Assembly: GCA_017432005.1 (NCBI GenBank) | Contig: JAFRKA010000026.1 | Coordinates: 1-64,000, forward strand | Source of the DNA: Erysipelotrichaceae bacterium | GTDB lineage: Bacteria > Bacillota_I > Bacilli_A > Erysipelotrichales > Erysipelotrichaceae | DNA length: 64,000 nucleotides | Direction of reading: 5' to 3' | Shown: in pieces, positions 22,351 through 25,533 of the stretch | Layout of the letters: each line of letters starts with the position of its first letter | How positions within the stretch are numbered: the stretch's first letter is position 1 | Notes under the pieces: model-generated | Seen by the model: the letters and a program-made list of their open reading frames with translations, nothing else | Told to the model about the DNA's origin: nothing | Databases searched by the model: none | Made by a program: the position numbers and the translations under genes

Positions 22351-23457
22351 CTAAGTCAATGAACAGGCGGTATCGCAGTCGTCGATCTGACTGACTGTTT
22401 CCGAATGCAGGACATCGATATCCAGATATCCGGCGAACCAGCTGCTCAGACCTTCCAGAGTCTGATAGTACGGAAGATCATCATTGCTTCCGGGATCAAG
22501 GTAAGCCTTGACTTCACCGTTCTCGTAGATGAACATCGAAGGTGTATAGGAAACTCTGTCGCTGACGGAGTTTTTTGTTTTTGCCAGCACCGTCAGATCC
22601 ACCGCATACATGTCGATCTGATTGCTTTCGGTAAATTCTCTGACGATCGGAGCGAATGAAGCACAGGAGACACAGCCCGGCAGATAGACATAAAGAGCGA
22701 AGGTCTTCCCCTCTTTTTCCAGTTCTTCCAGCTGTTGTAAGGAAGTGATCTCGATGAACAGATCATCGGTGATCTTGTCTTCCTGCTTGTCTGCTTTTGA
22801 ACCGGCGATCGGTGTAAGAGTCAGGAAATCGATATTGTGGTAATTCACTATCGAGAAATCGTAATGATCGCTTCCACCGTCTGAATACTTGGTCTCGACC
22901 TTGTTGTCACCGTCATAGTACCAGTAACCGCCGACATTGTAGATCTTCGTCTCATCCCAGCCCAGTTCCACCAGCATGTTTTTGGTCATGCCGGCATAAC
23001 CGCCGCCGCCGCACATCAGGAAGATATATTTGTCTTTAGGGAAAAGACTTTCCAGGATATGCAGGGATTCTTCATAGTTGGCGGTATATCCGTTCTCATC
23101 ATGAGTGAACAGCGTATAACCGCTGTAGGAACTTCCGACTTCTTCCGGCAGTCCTTCGACATTGCACAGATAAGGATAAGGAACGACTTCAAAGCCTTTC
23201 ACAAAACCTGAAAGATAGGAATCACCGCCGATCGCTTCGTAATTGGCTTCATCCTTCAGCATCCGCATATCGCGGTATACCGCATCCTCTCTGCCCAGAT
23301 ATTTATCGATCGTCTTCTCATTGATATTCCTGTCGATGCCCAGCTGTCCTCGCATACCGTCTTCCACTTCCGGAAGCGGCAAAGTATCATCAGCTTTGCA
23401 GGCTGATAAGGACATGAACATACACAGGATCATCAGAATACTTATTGCTTTTTTCAT
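22351..23457 (-). CDS. rhodanese-thioredoxin fusion lipoprotein
   Basis: 368 residues. A lipobox (LSAC) follows a signal peptide. The first ~200 residues contain a rhodanese-like fold, with FLMCGGGGYAGMTKNMLVEL as the active-site loop and NVGGYWYYDG afterwards. The C-terminal thioredoxin-like domain has YVYLPGCVSCASFAPIV (CxxC) and the cis-proline in SYTPSMFIY. Joining the two suggests transfer of sulfane sulfur or persulfide reduction outside the membrane (inference). TATAGT/TAGTAT sequences lie 6-8 nt before the ATG. Confidence 0.78.
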   Translation of the reverse strand: MKKAISILMILCMFMSLSACKADDTLPLPEVEDGMRGQLGIDRNINEKTIDKYLGREDAVYRDMRMLKDEANYEAIGGDSYLSGFVKGFEVVPYPYLCNVEGLPEEVGSSYSGYTLFTHDENGYTANYEESLHILESLFPKDKYIFLMCGGGGYAGMTKNMLVELGWDETKIYNVGGYWYYDGDNKVETKYSDGGSDHYDFSIVNYHNIDFLTLTPIAGSKADKQEDKITDDLFIEITSLQQLEELEKEGKTFALYVYLPGCVSCASFAPIVREFTESNQIDMYAVDLTVLAKTKNSVSDRVSYTPSMFIYENGEVKAYLDPGSNDDLPYYQTLEGLSSWFAGYLDIDVLHSETVSQIDDCDTACSLT

Positions 23458-23579
23458 ACCTATATACTATATCACTAATCTGAAGACAAGCTGAATTTTA
23501 CTCTCTACATAAAAAAGAAGCAGATCCTTTTTAGTTAGATACTAATTAATAAAATTTAAACGTATGAAAAGAGCGAAAC

Positions 23580-23607
23580 TTGACAAAATCTGGGGGGGGG
23601 ATACTAT
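23580..23607 (+). promoter_or_regulatory. promoter with a nine-G homopolymer in its spacer
   Basis: TTGACA (23580-23585) and TACTAT (23602-23607) are separated by 16 nt, nine of which are an uninterrupted G-run (23592-23600). One added G would give the optimal 17-nt spacing, so slippage could change expression of the lipoprotein downstream. The flanking 186-nt gap holds nothing else recognisable. Confidence 0.6.
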
Positions 23608-23655
23608 TCACATATACAAATAAATAAGATTAATTTTATACATATGGAGGTAAAT

Positions 23656-25131
23656 GTGAAGAAGTTTTTTATATCATCTATACTCATGATTATAATAGCT
23701 ATTTCTTTAGTAGGTTGCAGCTCCGGAGGAACATCTACTAAAAAGCCATCTGGTCTTTATCGTGATAGCGATAACATCCTGATGTCTCATCCTGACAACA
23801 ACATGTTATGGAAAACGAATGTAGTTGTCATTGGCGATGAATATGAATATGAGTTTAAACTTAAAAACGATAAGCTTGAATTGACAGATCGTGAAGATGG
23901 CACATCATATGCGTGTAAGATAGAGTTTTTTGATGGAATAAAAGGTTATGATATTGATGATTATGATGCTGACAAGGATGAGTACTGTCCTGTAGGAGGC
24001 ACATATTTCAAGTATGACAGCTCAGGAAAACCTTCTGGTCAGAATATCTCTGAAACAGATTCGCAGGACACAAATGAATCAGAAACCAATAGTTCGCTTT
24101 CAGAGAAAAAAACTGTATACGAGATTCCTGTTGAAGCTTTGAAATATAGGAAGGGGACTGTTGCTGAGATTGCAGGGTTAGATATTGACAAATATGGGGT
24201 TACCGAAATGTTCTATCCTCTTGAATCTTACTTTACTATTTCGATACCAAATTATGCAGCAAACTATTTTGGAGATGAGGTCTTTTATGATAATTATTAT
24301 TATTATAACTTAGTGGATCAACTGAAAAACGACGTTGTAAATAATTGCAACAGCGAAGGCATATTTGTATACGGAGTATATACAGATCTTCTAGGCGATA
24401 TTGATGCTGATGTTATAAAACTCCCGGAAGAAATTGACGGCTTACCTGTTATAGCCGAAAAACTAGATTTAACAGTAAATGATTGTGGCGGCGCAGCATA
24501 TGAACAAGTTGGTAAAAATGTTATTCTGTTTCTTAGTGAAAATGGTCTTTCAAATTTAAATCAGATATTCGCTGGAAACACTCTCATAATTGATGGAAGC
24601 AGAAATCCAGAATTTCTAAACGATTATGAGCTGTTATATCTAAAAGCCACATTTGAAGACACTTTGAACTCAAAATCTGTGCCAGATGCAAAATATGCCT
24701 GTCTGGAAATAAGAGATGATGCGGCAAAATCTGATGTTACTTTGAATTTTGATAATACAAAAGTCCTTCTTATTGATAGTGTAATCCCTGGTCAAGTTAA
24801 TTCACATGACCTATATAAGGTAAATTTGCACGCAGAAAATGTTGATTATTTAAATATCGAAGGGACATGGAATAGTGTTTATATAGAAGAAACAAATCTG
24901 GCTTTGTTTGATCAGTTTATTACAATTAATAAAGTTTTAACACTTAAAGGAGAAAATCATTTAGAGGATCTTGCTAATATCGAAATGCGTTCAGGTTCAA
25001 AAATAATCAATAAGACAGGGCAGGAAATAGATTGGAAGAGATTAATACAAAATTGTTATAATGAACAGGCAACATTTGAAACAGGACGTATAGATTGCGG
25101 TTCATATCCCGTGGAAGTTGTAAGTGAATAA
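23656..25131 (+). CDS. AT-rich lipoprotein of unknown function
   Basis: 491 residues from the GTG that follows GGAGGTAAAT; an in-frame ATG at 23644 overlaps that ribosome site and is rejected. The signal sequence MKKFFISSILMIIIAISLVGC gives a lipobox. An acidic Ser/Thr-rich linker (about residues 135-160) leads to a mainly beta-strand second half. A segment IKLPEEIDGLPVIAEKLDLT recalls the start of BspA-type leucine-rich repeats, but clear repeats are not seen. Its base composition and codons (many TTA, AAT, GAT, ATA) are noticeably more AT-rich than its neighbours, suggesting acquisition by transfer. Confidence 0.68.
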   Translation: MKKFFISSILMIIIAISLVGCSSGGTSTKKPSGLYRDSDNILMSHPDNNMLWKTNVVVIGDEYEYEFKLKNDKLELTDREDGTSYACKIEFFDGIKGYDIDDYDADKDEYCPVGGTYFKYDSSGKPSGQNISETDSQDTNESETNSSLSEKKTVYEIPVEALKYRKGTVAEIAGLDIDKYGVTEMFYPLESYFTISIPNYAANYFGDEVFYDNYYYYNLVDQLKNDVVNNCNSEGIFVYGVYTDLLGDIDADVIKLPEEIDGLPVIAEKLDLTVNDCGGAAYEQVGKNVILFLSENGLSNLNQIFAGNTLIIDGSRNPEFLNDYELLYLKATFEDTLNSKSVPDAKYACLEIRDDAAKSDVTLNFDNTKVLLIDSVIPGQVNSHDLYKVNLHAENVDYLNIEGTWNSVYIEETNLALFDQFITINKVLTLKGENHLEDLANIEMRSGSKIINKTGQEIDWKRLIQNCYNEQATFETGRIDCGSYPVEVVSE

Positions 25132-25172
25132 TCAAATTAATGTAACAGTTTATAAGTAGTTATACAGGAATC

Positions 25173-25514
25173 GTGAAAAAGGATCGTCTAAATTTTCTTA
25201 GTCATATCAATACGATCGAAAACACCAGCATCTATACGATCGCCGATGAGTGCTTCGTATCCCGCAGCAGCGTCCAGCGTTTCATCAAGAATATCGGCTA
25301 TGACAGCTATACGCTGCTCAAGAATTATCTGAAGGATGTCATCTCTCACGAAAACGCACTGATCTACTATATCGGCAAAGACATCATGATCTCATCACGC
25401 AACATCACGATGTCCAAAAACGTCTACACCACCTACGGTCTGACTTTCTTCTTCGACCTGTTCTATCACGGGTGTTACGTCGAATACAATCGTCTCAACA
25501 ATAAAGGGCAGTGA
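25173..25514 (+). pseudogene. RpiR-type regulator remnant, internally deleted
   Basis: 113 codons, GTG start. Residues ~10-55 (TSIYTIADECFVSRSSVQRFIKNIGYDSY, quoted in parts: IADECFVSRSSVQRFIK, NIGYDSY) are a clear RpiR/MurR helix-turn-helix. After about residue 70 the sequence (YTTYGLTFFFDLFYHGCYVEY) resembles the very end of such regulators. The ~130-150-residue SIS sugar-phosphate core between them is absent. Codon use is like the chromosome, unlike the AT-rich gene just upstream. It could still make a short DNA-binding protein. Confidence 0.58.
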
Positions 25515-25533
25515 TCGATCACTGTCCTTTATT
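25500..25533. terminator. bidirectional terminator between RpiR remnant and pepP
   Basis: AATAAAGG, one mismatch, CAGTGATC and its complement form a 34-bp near-perfect palindrome covering the stop codons of both convergent genes. Confidence 0.78.

Follow-up and report, generated by a model that had tools for sequence, protein, structure and literature searches.

The 64,000-nt stretch of DNA analyzed here (the window; positions 1 to 64,000 of contig JAFRKA010000026.1 of an Erysipelotrichaceae bacterium of the gut) carries on its + strand a gene for a predicted lipoprotein of 491 aa (23656..25131), the N terminus of which reads MKKFFISSILMIIIAISLVGC, a lipoprotein signal with the lipobox LVGC. 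The start of the gene is probably the GTG at 23656 and not the listed ATG at 23644, because a Shine-Dalgarno sequence, GGAGG (23646..23650, + strand), lies 5 nt upstream of the former. The preliminary description, made from the letters of the sequence, had held the gene to code for an AT-rich lipoprotein, and this is borne out: its GC content is 34%, against 46% for the window, and the product has both a signal sequence and a lipobox, from which a surface location is predicted. The protein belongs to no Pfam family, the region has no match in Rfam, and a plasmid collection gave no match. Among 316 genomes of the order no ortholog was found except in one near-clonal assembly (G035), and the weak matches to the protein cover mostly its signal peptide. 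Its structure, predicted without an alignment, has a mean pLDDT of 36 and is unusable.

The lipoprotein gene is part of an extra 2.06 kb (23458..25518) located between a thioredoxin-like lipoprotein gene and a pepP-like gene. In other members of the genus (L173, L174, L176, L177 and L178) these two genes adjoin, about 60 nt apart, and in further relatives the same gap carries rpiR together with GH1/PTS-like genes (names inferred from sequence). In the window the insert holds, besides the AT-rich lipoprotein gene, a 113-aa rpiR remnant (25173-25514), in which the N terminus of a SIS-type RpiR regulator is fused in frame to its C terminus; about 135 residues from the middle of the protein, present in the full-length versions of L186 and L188, are missing. 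The variable content of the gap across relatives indicates that the site is plastic and the lipoprotein gene accessory. An imperfect inverted repeat is also found here (23447-23472 / 23549-23574; 77% over 26 nt, with the arms 76 nt apart); its right arm, GTATGAAAAGAGC, is similar to the beginning of the thioredoxin-like lipoprotein gene, which is divergent.

Upstream of the lipoprotein gene, and on the same strand, the sequence TTGACA (23580-23585), a perfect -35 element, is separated by 16 nt from TACTAT (23602-23607), a -10 element that matches TATAAT at four of six positions. The spacer consists of AAATCT (23586-23591), an uninterrupted run of nine G residues (23592-23600), which we propose to be a slippage tract, and a single A (23601), so that the -10 element begins 1 nt past the tract; the spacing and the nine G residues out of 16 that had been described for this promoter are thus exact. 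In a consensus scan the promoter scores 10/12, among the best of the region, but consensus matches are as many in shuffled sequence as in the real one, and the hexamers alone therefore prove nothing. The G tract itself is the sole run of G or C of at least 8 in the 2,193,879-base assembly, the second-longest G run within the window being 6. A first-order model of the composition of the window predicts about 2.5 G and C runs of nine genome-wide, whereas extrapolation from the observed decay of run lengths predicts about 0.02, and for this reason the length of the tract by itself is only moderately surprising. Its placement between the -35 and -10 elements, together with the repetition of this arrangement in relatives, is not what chance would give.

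The G9 tract is also present in G035. The two assemblies have 129,434 bp in common, with 29 mismatches and no gaps, which indicates a single strain or two very close ones; the tract length is equal in these two near-clonal assemblies. The assemblies concerned are listed as different species; as their contigs (G035:C4 and G000:C24) are 99.98% identical over 129 kb, an error in one of the bins, or in one of the assignments to species, is probable.

The same layout recurs in relatives. A run of nine G residues is present in 14 of the 36 genomes of the genus, and about 10 of the 23 distinct tracts lie 3-12 nt behind TTGAC and ahead of a TA-rich -10 element, far above chance. In the order, TTGAC followed after 3-12 nt by at least eight G residues is found in 32 of 316 genomes, at about 54 sites in all, against two matches to a reversed-pattern control; the poly-C version, with seven sites, is at background level and not enriched. 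The form with the complete TTGACA hexamer is found in 40 of the 392 genomes of a phylum sample, which is in effect a sample of the same class, and here too the reversed control gave two matches. We have read 62 sites in detail, 57 of which have the main layout. In 51 of these 57, TAnnnT, most commonly TATAAT, follows 0-3 nt past the tract, directly abutting it in 43. Tract length among the sites read is 8-16, and the spacers between the -35 and -10 elements are 15-24 nt long, mostly 16-20. As the sites were chosen by TTGAC, independent evidence comes only from the -10 element, from the genes that follow and from the differences in tract length. Four stretches of viral contigs match a strict form of the pattern. 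In two genomes, G171 and G172 (L072, L073, L098, L100 and L101), there is a variant in which 2 nt separate the G tract from TTGACA and about 10 nt separate it from the -10 element downstream; these sites precede secreted proteins. In two species of the genus (L014 and L015) a G9 tract occurs in a common context, AAAAAAGC-G9-TGAAAAAAATGA, that is not a -35/-10 spacer.

The genes behind these promoters are biased toward predicted surface proteins. When N termini are judged by a simple rule of hydrophobicity, those of 32 of 55 ORFs downstream of tracts are signal-peptide-like, as compared with 43 of 347 other ORFs (Fisher p of about 7e-13, an optimistic value since a few contigs supply most of the background and paralogs do not count as independent). 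Their Pfam domains include Big_2, Listeria-Bacteroides repeats, DUF285 leucine-rich repeats, VWA and a pectate-lyase-like adhesive domain, as well as GH20, Polysacc_synt_2, LytR_cpsA_psr, PTS EIIC, ABC transporter, SIS and radical SAM/SPASM. The set takes in adhesin-like, capsule and transporter genes, as phase-variable genes typically do. At one site (L054, in G001:C18) a G11 promoter is followed, about 30 nt on, by a gene for a 39-aa Cys-containing peptide and then by one for a radical SAM/SPASM protein; the G-tract promoter may here control an operon for a RiPP (modified peptide).

The preliminary description had called for tract lengths to be counted across related strains. At the locus itself the count is nine in both near-clonal assemblies, and in relatives near-identical copies do differ in length. 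Orthologous promoters of two species (G001 and G002) have G11 and G10, with 94.8% identity over 991 bp, and two copies within one genome (G126) have G9 and G10, with 97.0% identity over 333 bp. Near-identical promoters also differ in G208 (G8/G9) and G084 (G14/G16), and across genomes in G245 and G247 (G12/G10) and in G172 and G171 (G9/G8); the homopolymer consensus in metagenome assemblies may err by one base, however, and lone one-base differences are weak evidence. A consistent pattern of lengths across promoters is stronger evidence than any single difference of this kind. In a 1.0-Mb genome of the same class (G597) about 20 tract promoters serve two paralogous families of secreted proteins. 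The promoters of one type, ten of which could be read, comprise six with G10 and four with G9, and the eight of the other type comprise five with G9, two with G10 and one with G11. Related promoters with the same flanks thus vary in tract length.

How are these tracts to be interpreted? One alternative is that the G tract is a fixed feature, structural or bound by a regulator, that gives the promoter a constant strength or is recognized by a DNA-binding protein. The tracts being same-stranded and abutting the -10 element would agree with this, as would the conservation of promoter flanks within a genome and the equal tract length of the two near-clonal assemblies; yet a fixed site would not vary as much as these tracts (8-16) and spacers (15-24 nt) do, and the length differs while the neighboring bases stay alike, so that we regard a fixed feature as unlikely. 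Still less probable is a chance run of G between promoter-like hexamers, with the true start of transcription elsewhere. That the consensus matches of the region are no commoner than in shuffled sequence and that the composition model permits a few G9 or C9 runs per genome are both compatible with chance, but the genome has no second run of the kind, and the order TTGACA, G tract, TAnnnT in relatives far exceeds both the reversed and the poly-C controls.

We give very little credence to an artefact of sequencing or assembly, such as the poly-G calls of two-color Illumina chemistry, even though this genome and many of the relatives are probably metagenome assemblies and a few tracts are located at contig ends (L149 and L094): the tract lies in the interior of a contig in both near-clonal assemblies, between which there are 29 differences, and an artefact would have no preference for the spacer between the -35 and -10 elements. 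A switch by recombination, such as an invertible promoter, is just as hard to credit. The inverted repeat just upstream could be taken to suggest one, but it is imperfect and one of its arms runs into the beginning of the divergent gene; moreover, when inverted repeats enclosing the promoter were sought, this repeat was seen to leave the promoter outside.

The best explanation, to which we assign a probability of about three in four, is a promoter with a slippable G tract that switches expression of the lipoprotein. The promoter would be of the sigma-A type; slippage during replication would add or drop a G and shift the length of the spacer (16 nt with G9), the surface lipoprotein gene downstream would in consequence be transcribed more or less strongly, and the population would then be a mix of high and low expressers. 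Points against this reading are the equal G9 of the two near-clonal assemblies, with no gap in 129 kb, the agreement of the -10 element with the consensus at only four of six positions, and the one-base errors to which homopolymers in metagenome assemblies are liable. Of the phase-variable promoter originally proposed, the G tract in the spacer ahead of a lipoprotein gene stands, and the layout recurs before surface genes across the order and class; what we infer is that the tract slips at the window locus, that transcription depends on its length and at which length the gene is "on". It is plausible, as had been suggested, that one more G would restore the 17-nt optimum.

The closest known case is porA of Neisseria meningitidis, in which the surface level of PorA is 2.2-fold lower with 10G and 13-fold lower with 9G than with 11G (PMC3639595). 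As in the window, with its predicted surface lipoprotein, a G homopolymer lies in the -35/-10 spacer of a gene for a surface protein, and graded expression with tract length would be the expected outcome; in porA, however, length switching and its effect on expression are proven, whereas the window promoter, in an unrelated gene and phylum, is known from its sequence. In Mycoplasma hyorhinis, several surface lipoprotein genes (vlp) each have a poly-A tract in the promoter spacer. This is the nearest parallel to G597 and its many secreted-protein genes with promoter homopolymers, the two secreted families of which resemble the Vlp/Vsp repertoires of mycoplasmas; in contrast, the window has a tract of G, not A, and its genome a single such promoter. 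In Bordetella, a poly-C tract in the promoter region of fim controls a surface structure via slippage. The promoter-region homopolymer is shared with the window, and so, by prediction, is the surface product, slippage being known in fim; the tract there is of C, however, a form that is not enriched in this order. In a gut commensal, Bifidobacterium breve, slippage of pilus G tracts has been measured by deep sequencing (PMC9187656), although there, unlike in the window, the tract is situated in or between coding frames and its slippage alters the reading frame.

The mechanism is thus already known, as promoter-spacer slippage in porA, and the window adds to it a further, candidate member. No report for Erysipelotrichaceae was found among open-licence papers, and among the searchable papers of this kind the broad, multi-locus use of such tracts in commensal Bacilli seems unreported. 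Somewhat less firmly than for the window promoter, we favor the view that a large and hitherto unrecognized class of G-tract promoters (TTGACA, 4-11 nt, G8-16 and a TATAAT-like -10 element) provides multi-locus phase variation of surface proteins in many uncultured Bacilli that are commensals of the animal gut, with up to about 20 loci per 1-Mb genome, the window being a single-locus case. A 2025 review leaves open why genomes with many phase-variable loci seem confined to pathogens, and whether this could reflect a bias of the databases (PMC11868660). The carriers of the layout in the phylum sample are apparently mostly uncultured, host-associated Bacilli, and these relatives probably turn surface proteins up and down by slippage of G runs. 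That 40 of 392 genomes have the layout suggests that commensals may employ it widely.
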